Source of the DNA: a virus | Reading direction: 5' to 3' (one strand) | DNA: 31,492 nt | IMG/VR virus record: IMGVR_UViG_3300030450_001500 | Coordinates: 1 to 31,492 of that record | Shown here: piece by piece, positions 2,955 through 7,484 of the stretch | Numbering within the stretch: the stretch's first letter is position 1 | Layout of the letters: every line of letters begins with the position of its first letter | Notes under the pieces: generated by a model | Told to the model about the DNA's origin: nothing | The model's input: the letters and a program-made list of their open reading frames with translations, nothing else | The model's database searches: none | Made by a program: the position numbers and the translations under genes

Positions 2955-4444
2955 TGGCAATTTGGGATAACCTTTTCAAACAAAGAAAAAAACAAATCAA
3001 ACTCAGAAGAAGCTACAAAGCAGCTTCAAACGCTAATATCTTTTCCGACTTTATCGGCATATCTAGTAATGCAGATAGCACTATACGTTTTAATTTACGA
3101 AAAATAAGAGATAGATGTCGTGAACAAGCGAGAAACAACGATTATGCCAAGCGTTATTTACAGCTTATGACTACTAATGTAGTGGGTCAGAATGGTATTA
3201 GAATACAATCTAAGGCAAGAAACGAAGATGGCTCACTAGATTTTATTGGCAACCAAGTGATTGAGAACGCTTGGAAACAGTGGTCAAAGAAAGGTAACTG
3301 TACTGTTGATGGTAAGTTGTCTTTTGTCGATGCGCAAAAGCTGTTCATAGAATCACTTGCTAGAGATGGCGAGGTCTTAGTCAGACATATCACTACTAAC
3401 AATCCACTTGATCCTTACAAAATCCAGTTCTTAGATGCCGATTATCTTGATGAAGAAGAAAATCAAGTAATGAAAAATGGCGAAGAAACTATTATGGGTG
3501 TCAAGCTTGATGCCAATGGTAAGCCAAAATCATATCTATTGTTCAAAGATCACCCACACAATCAATACTTCGGTAACTACAATAGAGAGCATATTGAGCT
3601 ACCAGCGGATCAGCTTATACACGCTTATGTGCCAGAAAGAGCAGAACAAACAAGAGGTGTGCCTTTTATGACTACAGCACTAACACGTTTAAAAATGCTC
3701 GATGGCTACGAGGAAGCTGAGTTAGTAGCAGCTAGAGTAGGCGCAAGTAAGATGGGTTTCTTTACTTCTCAAAGTGGCGATCAATATACAGGCGATGATT
3801 TAGAAGATGATTACACTCCAATAATGAACGCTGAAGCAGGTACATTCGAGCAACTACCTGATGGTATGGATTTTAAATCTTTCGACCCTCAACACCCAGC
3901 ATCAGGATTTGATAGCTTTCATAAGTCTGTGCTTAGAGGTATAGCTTCTGGGCTTGGTGTCAGCTACGTCTCACTTGCTAATAACTTAGAGGGTGTAAAC
4001 TATTCATCAATCAGACAAGGCACACTAGAAGAAAGAGACAACTTTAGAATTATGCAAAGATTTATGATTGAGCATTTTATCCAACCAGTTTTTGATAAGT
4101 GGTTATTACAAACCATGTCATTCAAAGATGATTTCTTACTACCACCTGATAAGTACAACAAATTTGCTAATAACATAGTCTATATTCCTAGAAGCTGGGG
4201 TTGGATTGACCCTGTTAAAGAAGTCAAAGCTAATGTGGATGGTCTCAATGCTGGGGTAGTCACTATGCAAGATGTCCAAGCCAACTATGGTCGTGACGTT
4301 GAAGAGTTGTTTGAACAACATCAAAGAGAAGAAGAACTAGCCAAACAATACGACATTCAAACAGCTTATCAGCCATTTGGTGCTATGAAGATGCCAGTAG
4401 ATGCTGTTGTGCAAGACGATGGTGAGGCAGACGATGGCGACTAA
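2954..4444 (+). CDS. portal protein (lambda gpB family)
   Basis: Forms the dodecameric ring at the head vertex through which DNA enters and leaves. The 496-residue protein shows the phage_portal_2 pattern: a basic N-terminus, RNNDYAKRYLQLMTTNVVGQNGIRIQ near residues 57-82, SLARDGEVLVRHI near 135, a wing/stem region with HAYVPERAEQTRGVPFMTTALTRLKMLDGYEEAELVAARVGA, and GVNYSSIRQGTLEERD near 350. Length is close to lambda gpB (533). It starts in the stop of the gpW-like gene and ends 11 bases inside the next gene, consistent with a coupled head operon. In lambda the following gene is also a protease, but of a different (ClpP-like) class. Confidence 0.95.
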   Translation: MAIWDNLFKQRKKQIKLRRSYKAASNANIFSDFIGISSNADSTIRFNLRKIRDRCREQARNNDYAKRYLQLMTTNVVGQNGIRIQSKARNEDGSLDFIGNQVIENAWKQWSKKGNCTVDGKLSFVDAQKLFIESLARDGEVLVRHITTNNPLDPYKIQFLDADYLDEEENQVMKNGEETIMGVKLDANGKPKSYLLFKDHPHNQYFGNYNREHIELPADQLIHAYVPERAEQTRGVPFMTTALTRLKMLDGYEEAELVAARVGASKMGFFTSQSGDQYTGDDLEDDYTPIMNAEAGTFEQLPDGMDFKSFDPQHPASGFDSFHKSVLRGIASGLGVSYVSLANNLEGVNYSSIRQGTLEERDNFRIMQRFMIEHFIQPVFDKWLLQTMSFKDDFLLPPDKYNKFANNIVYIPRSWGWIDPVKEVKANVDGLNAGVVTMQDVQANYGRDVEELFEQHQREEELAKQYDIQTAYQPFGAMKMPVDAVVQDDGEADDGD

Positions 4445-7400
4445 TTTTCCCAAACAAGGTGATGACAAAAAGATCTCGTTACGAAACAGTAACTATCCTC
4501 TGTTCGATAGAAGATTCGCAGCATCAATTAAGAAAGACGACCCTAAGATTTGGAAAGCTGGGGGCAATATAGAGGGCAATAACTCTTACAACTTATTGCT
4601 CAGAGCTTTAGATGGCGATGACAGCCCAGCAGTTATTAGAAAAATAAAAGAACGTGAAGCATGGGCAGCACGACATTTTGAAGATGGCGCACAATTTAAA
4701 TCAGGTGATAAGAAAGCTAGACCATCGAACATAGCTGGGGTTGTCGCCCAGATCAAATGGTTGGTCATAGGTACATTAGGTGAGCAAAAGATGAAAGATG
4801 TTATCTTAGAAGCAGTGAAATACCTTGAGGATAAGGAAGATCGTGCTATGGAAAGACAAGTATCAGCTACAGTAGAGAAAGGTCTGCGCAAAAAAGTAGA
4901 AGATCACAACGAAGAATATGGCAACGATAAAAGAAAAAGAGCAACGTATCGTATGCTCCGTGCTGTATTTTTACGAGGTATAGGCGCATATAAAACTAAC
5001 CCTGGTTCAGTCAGACCATCTGTACAATCACCTGAACAATGGGCTTATGCCAGAGTAAATGCTTTCATGTTTGCCCTCAGAAACCTTAGATTCCCAAGCA
5101 AGAATAAATTCGACACTGACTTATTACCTAAAGCTCACCCTTTATCTTCTGATGAAAATGGTGATAGAATACAAAATATGGACACAGAAGCTAGGCAAGA
5201 AACCATAGAATACAAAGTCGTTATTAAAGAAGGCGAAAACAAATATGGAGAGGGTAATAAATTTTACTTGGATGGTGAGCTTTCGCCAAGACTGGTGATG
5301 TTATCAGGTGATACCTATATTTTCGATTTATCCGATAGATCAAATGCTTCTCATGCTTTACGCTTATCCGTTACAGAAGATGGCACACATGGCGATGGCG
5401 AGGCATATACCGATGGTGTAGAAATCATGGGTAAAGCTGGTGAAGAAGGCGCTCAACTTAAAATAACTGTTTCAGATGATACACCAGATCTTTACTATTA
5501 CTGTGTCAATCATGCAGGTATGGGTGGCAAAATTGAAACTAGAGAAGTAGAAGAAACTCGACCTTATCATGACGAAGAAGAAGAAGAAAAAGCTCATCAC
5601 GAAGATGAAGAAAAAGGCATGAAAGACGAAGATGACAGAGCAGAGCTAGACCAAGAGATAAGAGACTTCTATGCCGAAGATGGTCTAAGACGTGATTTTG
5701 AATTCGATAGAAACAAAATTGACGAAGAAAAAAGAACAGTGGTTATAGGTGTGTCAAGCGAAGAACCAGTACAAAGAAGATTTGGTTTTGAAGTGCTTGG
5801 ACATAAAGAAGATGAAATAGATATGGATTTTATGGCAAGTGGTAGAAGTCCATTATTGTTAGACCACGATGCCAGTAAACAAATAGGGGTAGTAGAAGAA
5901 TTTGCTATCGACCCAGAAAACAAAAGAACAGTAGCCAAAGTAAGATTTTCAAAGAACAGAATGGCAGATGAAGTCTTTGAAGATGTCAAAGATGGCATAC
6001 GACAGAACATATCCGTTGGCTATCAAGTCAACAGTATGCAGAAGGAAGATGAAGAAAGAGAGGGTGTTCCTGTCTATCGAGTTAATTCTTGGTCTCCTTT
6101 GGAAGTTTCAGCAGTCAGCGTACCAGCAGACCAGTCACGTTTAGTTGGCTTCGCTAGATCTAAAGAAACACCAAAAATAACTATTAATTCAAATAAGGAT
6201 AAAATTATGGAAAACGTAGAAAATAATACTCCAGAAGTGAATCCTGAAGAGTTAAGAAAACAATTTGCACAAGAAGCAAAGCAAATTAGCGACCTTGGAC
6301 AACAACATGGACAAGCTGGATTAGCTAAAGATGCTATTGCTAAAGGCATGAGACTTAACGAATTTCAGAATGAACTTTTGAAAGCATTAGAAAGCAAACC
6401 TCTTGATTTACCTTCTGACGTTGATATGAAAACTGAAGAGAAAAGAGAATACTCTTTACTTAAGGCTATTCAAGAATCAGCGAATGGCAATCTAACAGGT
6501 CTCGAAAGAGAAGTGTCAGACGAAATTGCTCACAGAACAGGCAAAGCAGCAAGAGGATTTTATATGCCAACTAATATTGGTTTCGGCAAAAGAGACCAAA
6601 CAGTTGGATCAAACAGTGGCGGTGGCTTCTTAAAAGGCACAGATCATCTGGCCAACGAATTTATCGAAGCTGTTTATGCAAAATTGGTCATAGGCGCGGC
6701 TGGGGCTAGGACCTTAACCGGTTTAAAAGGGGACGTGGCGATACCGAAACTATCTGCTTCTGTCACAAACTCAGCTTTTGTAGCAGAAAATGCAGCTCCA
6801 AGTGAAGGTTCAGCTACTTTTGCACAAGTAACAATGTCACCAAAAACTTTGGCAGCATTTATAGATGTTTCAAGAAAGCTTATGCTTCAATCTGATCCGT
6901 CAGTCGAAGCTGTATTGAGAGAAGATATCATCAATACTTTTGCTAGAAAGATCGATGAAGTAGCTATCGAAGGTGGTGCAAGTAATCACCCAAGCGGTAT
7001 TATTGCTTCTGTATCTAACAATATTGTAGGTCTTGGCTCAAATGGTGCAGCAATAGCTTATACAAATATTGTTGAGTTGATAAAAGCAGTAGAAGAAGAT
7101 AACGCTATCAGAAATGATGCCTCAACTAAGTTCTTAGGTAATTCAAAAGTTACAGCTAAATTAAGAACAACTGCAAAACAAAGCAGTGGTGTTGAGGGTA
7201 ACTTCATATTAGAGCCTAACAATACAATGCTAGGATATGATTATCTATCATCCTCATTAGTGCCATCTGACCTAAGTAAAGGTTCAGGTAGCAACTTGTC
7301 AGCTTTAATATTTGGTGACTTCAGTCAGGTCTTACTTGGGTATTACTCAGGTGTTGACGTTGTTGTAGATCCATACACAGGATCAAGTGCAGGTACTACC

Positions 7401-7484
7401 AGACTTGCCTTCTTCCAAGATATGGATGTTGCAATTAGAGACGAAAATGCTTTTGCAGTATGTAAAGACATTGTCACTACTTAA
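4434..7484 (+). CDS. polyprotein: structural domain, cupredoxin-like domain, prohead protease, major capsid protein
   Basis: One 1016-residue frame carries most of head assembly. I place the start at ATG 4434 (GGTGAGG six bases upstream) rather than 4401. Approximate order: 1-160 helical domain; 170-235 with RGIGAY...SVRP...QWAYARVNAF, a motif I associate with phage structural proteins; 258-372 cupredoxin-like domain with His307, Cys357, His360 and Met363; 375-405 acidic linker; 410-575 HK97-type prohead serine protease (LLLDHD, His478; NISVGY, Ser527); 592-1016 HK97-fold capsid. The protease would cleave the scaffold and maturing capsid. Whether the full chain is made and auto-cleaved, or the capsid comes mainly from the internal start at 6207, cannot be told from sequence. 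Confidence 0.9.
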   Translation: MATNFPKQGDDKKISLRNSNYPLFDRRFAASIKKDDPKIWKAGGNIEGNNSYNLLLRALDGDDSPAVIRKIKEREAWAARHFEDGAQFKSGDKKARPSNIAGVVAQIKWLVIGTLGEQKMKDVILEAVKYLEDKEDRAMERQVSATVEKGLRKKVEDHNEEYGNDKRKRATYRMLRAVFLRGIGAYKTNPGSVRPSVQSPEQWAYARVNAFMFALRNLRFPSKNKFDTDLLPKAHPLSSDENGDRIQNMDTEARQETIEYKVVIKEGENKYGEGNKFYLDGELSPRLVMLSGDTYIFDLSDRSNASHALRLSVTEDGTHGDGEAYTDGVEIMGKAGEEGAQLKITVSDDTPDLYYYCVNHAGMGGKIETREVEETRPYHDEEEEEKAHHEDEEKGMKDEDDRAELDQEIRDFYAEDGLRRDFEFDRNKIDEEKRTVVIGVSSEEPVQRRFGFEVLGHKEDEIDMDFMASGRSPLLLDHDASKQIGVVEEFAIDPENKRTVAKVRFSKNRMADEVFEDVKDGIRQNISVGYQVNSMQKEDEEREGVPVYRVNSWSPLEVSAVSVPADQSRLVGFARSKETPKITINSNKDKIMENVENNTPEVNPEELRKQFAQEAKQISDLGQQHGQAGLAKDAIAKGMRLNEFQNELLKALESKPLDLPSDVDMKTEEKREYSLLKAIQESANGNLTGLEREVSDEIAHRTGKAARGFYMPTNIGFGKRDQTVGSNSGGGFLKGTDHLANEFIEAVYAKLVIGAAGARTLTGLKGDVAIPKLSASVTNSAFVAENAAPSEGSATFAQVTMSPKTLAAFIDVSRKLMLQSDPSVEAVLREDIINTFARKIDEVAIEGGASNHPSGIIASVSNNIVGLGSNGAAIAYTNIVELIKAVEEDNAIRNDASTKFLGNSKVTAKLRTTAKQSSGVEGNFILEPNNTMLGYDYLSSSLVPSDLSKGSGSNLSALIFGDFSQVLLGYYSGVDVVVDPYTGSSAGTTRLAFFQDMDVAIRDENAFAVCKDIVTT
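6195..6199 (+). promoter_or_regulatory. internal ribosome binding site for capsid start
   Basis: AAGGA seven bases before the in-frame ATG at 6207, inside the protease-capsid frame. It lies in an A-rich, unstructured stretch between the end of the protease domain and the capsid N-terminus, where an initiation site would be expected if the capsid is made separately. Confidence 0.7.
6207..7484 (+). CDS. major capsid protein from internal start
   Basis: In-frame internal initiation inside the polyprotein gives a free 425-residue HK97-type major capsid protein. The ATG at 6207 is preceded by AAGGA at 6195-6199 with a seven-base spacer, one of the best ribosome binding sites in the window, and lies just after the protease domain ends. 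The product has a charged helical N-terminal delta/scaffold-like region (about 1-110), then the capsid fold: GGGFLKGTDHLANEFIEAV, the SVTNSAFVAENAAPSE region, and a C-terminal AFFQDMDVAIRDENAFAVCKDI block, all typical of phage_capsid proteins. Nested expression would supply capsid subunits in excess of protease. HK97-fold capsid is firm; use of this start is inferred. Confidence 0.8.
   Translation: MENVENNTPEVNPEELRKQFAQEAKQISDLGQQHGQAGLAKDAIAKGMRLNEFQNELLKALESKPLDLPSDVDMKTEEKREYSLLKAIQESANGNLTGLEREVSDEIAHRTGKAARGFYMPTNIGFGKRDQTVGSNSGGGFLKGTDHLANEFIEAVYAKLVIGAAGARTLTGLKGDVAIPKLSASVTNSAFVAENAAPSEGSATFAQVTMSPKTLAAFIDVSRKLMLQSDPSVEAVLREDIINTFARKIDEVAIEGGASNHPSGIIASVSNNIVGLGSNGAAIAYTNIVELIKAVEEDNAIRNDASTKFLGNSKVTAKLRTTAKQSSGVEGNFILEPNNTMLGYDYLSSSLVPSDLSKGSGSNLSALIFGDFSQVLLGYYSGVDVVVDPYTGSSAGTTRLAFFQDMDVAIRDENAFAVCKDIVTT

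Follow-up and report, generated by a model that had tools for sequence, protein, structure and literature searches.

The window analysed here, i.e., the whole 31,492-base IMG/VR record of a marine bacterial virus, carries TerL, portal, connector, and tail genes in siphovirus order, together with an open frame of 1027 codons that encodes both a prohead protease and a major capsid protein. The likely start of this ORF is the ATG at 4434, which is preceded by GAGG. Its Pfam matches are Peptidase_S78 (residues 483-579) and Phage_capsid (residues 749-1022), and in the PHROGs the ORF groups with major head and protease proteins; the S78 protease and the HK97-fold capsid protein share one frame. Upstream of the protease lies an array of smaller modules (Table 1), one of which, present as a single copy in the record, is the subject of this analysis. 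An AlphaFold2 model of the entire N-terminal part was of low confidence (pLDDT 64.5, pTM 0.33) and was used for domain bounds and linkers only. No near-identical isolate phage was found for the window in the collection searched.

Table 1. Features of the prohead protease-capsid ORF, in window positions; residue numbers of the candidate ligands count from 4401.
Feature	Position	Strand	Basis
Whole ORF: N-terminal modules, cupredoxin, S78 prohead protease, HK97-type major capsid protein	4401-7484	+	frame, Pfam, PHROGs
N-terminal helical module, KAGGNI type; another module replaces it in relatives	4434-4847 (end approximate)	+	
DUF5824-like helical module	4866-5120 (outer bounds approximate); Pfam match 4926-5072	+	
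Cupredoxin-fold domain	5205-5546	+	translation, AlphaFold2, fold search, profile alignment, conservation
His318, candidate copper ligand 1	5352-5354	+	sequence, profile alignment, conservation
Cys368, candidate copper ligand 2	5502-5504	+	sequence, profile alignment, conservation
His371, candidate copper ligand 3	5511-5513	+	sequence, profile alignment, conservation
Met374, candidate axial ligand	5520-5522	+	sequence, profile alignment, conservation
Acidic linker, low model confidence	5547-5700 (bounds approximate)	+	
Peptidase_S78 prohead protease match	5847-6137	+	Pfam; S78 His and Ser motifs kept in relatives
Shine-Dalgarno TAAGGA and ATG, probable internal capsid start	6194-6209	+	junction comparison in fusion ORFs
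Phage_capsid (HK97 fold) match	6645-7466	+	Pfam

The translation of this domain is IEYKVVIKEGENKYGEG...SNASHALRL...LYYYCVNHAGMGGKIETRE. A sequence-only reading had taken residues 258-372 for a plastocyanin-like domain, and the translation bears out those residues, the motifs, and the reading frame, with the numbering running from the ATG at 4434; its bounds of 5207-5545 pick out the right domain, except that 5207 is not a codon boundary and 5205 takes its place. That reading also described C-x2-H-x2-M as the usual plastocyanin spacing, which is a small error because the spacing is that of amicyanin, whereas plastocyanin has C-x2-H-x4-M, the form seen in several of the blue-copper proteins fetched for the comparison described below. 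Cys368 is the sole cysteine between the likely start and Cys1021, and since it has no second cysteine to pair with, the domain can form no internal disulfide.

Structure prediction by AlphaFold2 (domain plus 20 relatives) gave a confident beta-sandwich, with nearly all of the chain in beta structure (pLDDT 89, pTM 0.83). In the numbering of the model, His52 falls just before strand 54-57, Cys102 at the end of strand 98-102, and His105 and Met108 in the loop preceding strand 110-115, a predicted placement along the strands that matches the cupredoxin plan. When the model was compared with the PDB by Foldseek, the leading matches included plastocyanin, pseudoazurin, rusticyanin, amicyanin, and multicopper oxidase domains (best E 9.6e-4), and VIA-align returned the N-terminal domain of Hyphomicrobium nitrite reductase (Z 8.4, rmsd 2.7, 98 residues) and rusticyanin (Z 8.3). 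These Z values are moderate, the best being 8.4, yet the list of PDB matches consists nearly uniformly of cupredoxins, so that the structural comparison with plastocyanin that had been suggested as a check came out in favor of the fold. An Ig-like domain was also considered and seems less likely: by sequence, antibodies matched at chance level, and by fold they were represented by one entry at rank 45, with cupredoxins ranking first. A sequence search found no solved homologue of the domain, and a profile search brought up antibodies and filamin at chance level only. Among predicted viral proteins, the best match was a virion protein of cyanophage S-TIM5 (TM 0.90). The model was also matched, with E values from 1e-6 to 1e-5, by three small "beta-sandwich proteins" (A0A481YVH3, A0A481Z6J5, and A0A481Z7Q7) from uncultured relatives of marseilleviruses and pithoviruses.

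The relation to the blue-copper family PF00127 is more distant at the level of sequence. No Pfam model matches the domain of the window, and among 21 relatives PF00127 was the most frequent match, although always below threshold (3 of 21, best E 0.02). For this reason, 25 PF00127 domains were fetched from bacterial genomes, 24 of them were kept, and profiles were aligned with hhalign. The phage set scored 32.8 (E 4e-5, for a single comparison), and the phage set enlarged with cellular relatives scored 41.1 (E 1.2e-6), while 60 column shuffles reached maxima of 14.8 against the former and 13.1 against the latter, the shuffled maxima ranging overall from 13.1 to 15.2, and reversed profiles gave 12.7 and 15.6. 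In the alignment, all four candidate ligands fall on the blue-copper ligands. The distance between these scores and the shuffles indicates homology to the plastocyanin/azurin family, and with the curated PF00127 cut-off not reached, the domain is classed by its sequence as cupredoxin-fold and related to PF00127, not as a member of it. A PROSITE blue-copper pattern was found neither in the domain of the window nor in any of the 21 relatives, and in only 15 of the 24 bona fide PF00127 members. Two other accounts of the domain were set aside: a chance motif in a low-complexity region is rejected on the fold, the profile score, and the conservation described next, and a plastocyanin captured as an auxiliary metabolic gene is rejected because there is neither a Pfam match nor a separate gene, and the domain is fused into a structural ORF.

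Because searches with the YYYC motif would be biased, the search was repeated using only the residues upstream of the first ligand. This ligand-free query found 52 loci, of which 46 hold the complete domain, the other six being cut by contig ends, and the His/Cys/His/Met set is kept in all 46. Since 33 of the 99 columns in this set are invariant, the invariance of four ligands is not extraordinary by itself; the point is that none has been lost. With a median dN/dS of 0.13, the domain is under purifying selection. In a wider set, partly selected by motif, 94 of 108 unique copies have HCHM, and in several decayed copies two or more of the ligands are missing (KATL, DATM, HTSF, NA--, NG--). A metal site would be expected to show such a pattern, which is nevertheless no proof of one, and together with the fold and the profile score it supports the earlier proposal of a cupredoxin-like domain inside the head polyprotein, with a complete type-1-like ligand set. 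The KATL, DATM, NA--, and NG-- copies (L126, L127, L130, and L132) occur in cyanophage proteins annotated as baseplate wedge or hypothetical and constitute natural metal-less controls.

The domain is by no means confined to the window. By tblastn it is found in 209 phage records, mostly of Synechococcus and Prochlorococcus phages, but also of pelagiphages and Methylophilales phages, where the proteins that bear it are frequently annotated as tail fibre, baseplate wedge, or virion structural proteins, and the tail fibre and baseplate proteins sometimes hold several copies. Fusion to an S78/MCP head ORF was seen at 44 loci on about 40 distinct contigs. In these head ORFs the modules appear in different orders, namely KAGGN-CUP-DUF5824, GRGGT-CUP-DUF5824, KAGGN-DUF5824-CUP (the order of the window), and GRGGT-CUP-TUDOR. 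In a scan seeded with the capsid protein, one ORF out of the 72 with a complete 5' end, among the best 80 matches, holds the domain; two of the 72 belong to roseophages. The cupredoxin is a module that moves among the tail, baseplate, and head proteins of marine phages, and the simplest reading is that it is an acquired one. The sequence-only reading had found its association with a prohead protease unexpected, which remains fair for a head protease, but not for phage structural proteins in general, as the domain is common in the tail fibre, baseplate, and other virion proteins of marine phages. The region upstream of the protease (4434-5700 in the window; L006, L007, L013, L016, and L138-L216) is a hot spot at which KAGGN, GRGGT, DUF5824, Hva1_TUDOR, and cupredoxin modules are swapped, along with an unnamed "RPYPNEHAARL" module.

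The main rival of a metal-binding role is that the domain is a metal-free beta-sandwich of cupredoxin descent, serving as a spacer or adhesive module in which the conserved residues contribute to packing. Its occurrence in tail fibres and baseplate proteins, at times in multiple copies, recalls Ig-like modules, the copies that have lost ligands persist, and copper is scarce in the cytoplasm. On the other hand, the four ligands are kept in every one of the 46 complete head copies and also in divergent bacterial relatives, and a lone conserved cysteine with no intradomain disulfide is hard to explain through packing alone. On this evidence we consider the metal-free spacer rather unlikely.

The bacterial relatives just mentioned were sampled starting from loci labelled Betaproteobacteria and Bacteroidetes. 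Matches with E < 1e-4 occurred in 34 of 369 genomes sampled for the class and in 6 of 296 sampled for the phylum. Many of these proteins have lipobox-like leaders, most copies keep H, C, H, and M, and some match PF25489 (At5g54830-like domain). At least one of the closest bacterial hits (L217) has capsid-like neighbors and so appears to lie on a phage contig that was assembled with a bacterial genome. In a single-cell genome labelled Bacteroidetes (L223, G003:C5), the domain is contained in a giant open frame of 10,091 aa. Another relative (L220; 440-901, 4363-4866, and 4899-5891) is fused to DUF4214 and has a DUF411 gene next to it and a protein with a weak Cupredoxin_1 match close by, possibly a copper neighborhood. 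This setting, added to the type-1-like ligand set of the phage domain, could point to a cupredoxin that carries electrons or acts in redox chemistry in the infected cell. Such a role is nevertheless very improbable for the window, where the domain forms a tethered part of a structural polyprotein, the genes scanned included no recognisable redox partner enzyme, and no Pfam match links it to a host or phage plastocyanin.

The junction between protease and capsid protein bears on where the domain would be found in the particle. In the 81 unique protease-capsid ORFs compared, some of which lack the cupredoxin, an ATG always follows the protease within 65 codons, and upstream of it a Shine-Dalgarno match of at least 4 bases is present in 80 of the 81, and of at least 5 bases in 57; control windows of equal length from the same ORFs gave 31% and 7%, respectively, despite holding more ATGs. 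In the window, the ATG of this junction is at 6207. The conserved ATG and ribosome-binding site suggest that the capsid protein is probably also made without the cupredoxin, alone and in bulk, with the long cupredoxin form in small amounts, and that protease-capsid "fusions" in general probably yield a capsid protein from an internal start as well. If so, the domain would probably sit on a rarer long form in the prohead, and not on every capsomer.

In HK97-type assembly, the protease works inside the prohead and the N-terminal arm of the capsid protein faces inward. The place of the domain, N-terminal to the S78 protease in a head of this type, therefore implies the prohead interior. These two points, the expected interior position and the probable domain-free capsid protein, tell against the earlier suggestion of a decoration domain, and likewise against the reading in which the domain is displayed on every capsomer for surface decoration or host contact; linkers and protease are, in addition, cut during maturation. 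The frequency of the domain in tail fibres, which contact the host, is in favor of a surface role, to which we nonetheless assign very little probability.

The explanation that we prefer, and consider somewhat probable on balance, is that of a mobile cupredoxin with an intact type-1-like site and an amicyanin-type loop, inserted in a swappable N-terminal array of an ORF with two products, where it would act as a copper-holding accessory domain. In this scheme, an abundant capsid protein would start at the internal ATG, and a rarer long form would comprise the helical modules, cupredoxin, protease, and capsid domain. During assembly, this longer product would have its N-terminal part in the interior of the prohead; cleavage would follow in maturation, after which the domain, tethered by the flexible acidic linker, may be either released or retained. 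It would bind copper acquired within the host or upon lysis, and serve as a metal-stabilised or copper-holding accessory domain, with no part in surface decoration. The computations establish the fold, the ligand set with its conservation, the mobility of the domain, the fusion, and the conserved internal start of the capsid part, whereas the interior location, the two products, the cleavage, and the binding of copper are inferred, the first two from sequence and from related assembly systems.

Copper is our best guess for the metal because of the Cys/Met set. Free copper is very scarce in the bacterial cytoplasm, which counts against loading with copper there; the domain might acquire it at lysis or from the medium. 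Alternatively, the same site may hold another metal in vivo, e.g., cytoplasmic Zn(II), as a structural staple, considering that intracellular zinc is easier to come by than copper and that type-1 sites can accept Zn(II). Against this stand the axial Met and the Cys/His2 set, which are typical of copper sites, and the fact that the profile relatives are copper proteins, and we regard this alternative as improbable. Taken as a whole, a metal-loaded accessory domain is the most likely reading, with surface decoration and a redox role less likely.

Compared with type-1 cupredoxins such as plastocyanin, amicyanin, and pseudoazurin (PF00127), the phage domain shares the beta-sandwich, the His before the middle strand, and the Cys-His-Met loop before the last strand. 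It differs from them in that its loop is of amicyanin length and lacks Pro and Gly in the stretch from Cys to His, in a long insert of about 45 residues between the first His and the Cys, and in being tethered in structural proteins, with no signal peptide and no Pfam match above threshold. Certain marine phage virion proteins (PHROG 27200, 30742, 6005, 693, 708, and 677; S-TIM5 H6WFV3) hold the same domain at 28-51% identity and, for the most part, with the same ligands; these copies sit in tail fibre, baseplate, and other virion proteins, whereas that of the window lies upstream of a protease and a capsid protein. The bacterial lipoprotein-like proteins (PF25489 and CHRD-associated relatives) hold a homologous domain with the same four ligands, but are apparently exported and are not phage structural proteins.

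As for the ORF as a whole, S78 followed by an HK97-fold capsid protein in one ORF is the architecture of known protease/capsid fusions (NF045541; roseophages CRP-406 and CRP-811; Vibrio phage VP882). The window ORF scores 152 bits against NF045541, whose curated cut-off is 525, so the architecture is shared and the sequence is distant; with CRP-406 it shares about 40% identity over 571 aa. The junction ATG with its Shine-Dalgarno sequence is present in CRP-406, CRP-811, and VP882, as in the window, but none of these three isolates has a cupredoxin. In the roseophages, which are the closest isolates by capsid (e.g., CRP-406 and CRP-811, whose family is described in PMC12629253), a GRGGT module, with or without Tudor, is present instead of the cupredoxin. 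The fold and the protease-capsid fusion are already known, while a mobile cupredoxin that keeps its full ligand set in virion and prohead proteins of phages seems to be undescribed in the open literature searched, where no description of the domain as a copper site was found.

If cyanophages, pelagiphages, Methylophilales phages, and uncultured siphoviruses have a conserved and complete type-1-like site in their structural proteins, some ocean virions would be metalloproteins, of a kind for which the open papers searched gave no description. That marine phages generally equip both particles and proheads with copper-binding cupredoxins, such that many virions are copper proteins, is an idea that we put forward tentatively, as a possibility on the doubtful side. 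If true, it would be the copper counterpart of the iron proposed for phage tails; the domains might then play a part in host contact, in the stability of the particle, or in ocean copper chemistry. The idea is directly testable on cultured phages, e.g., S-TIM5 and pelagiphage EXVC032P Baldr. Apart from the fusions, the domain also occurs at the end of a large family of phage proteins of 240-306 aa (L073-L114; e.g., L076, 4461-5333).
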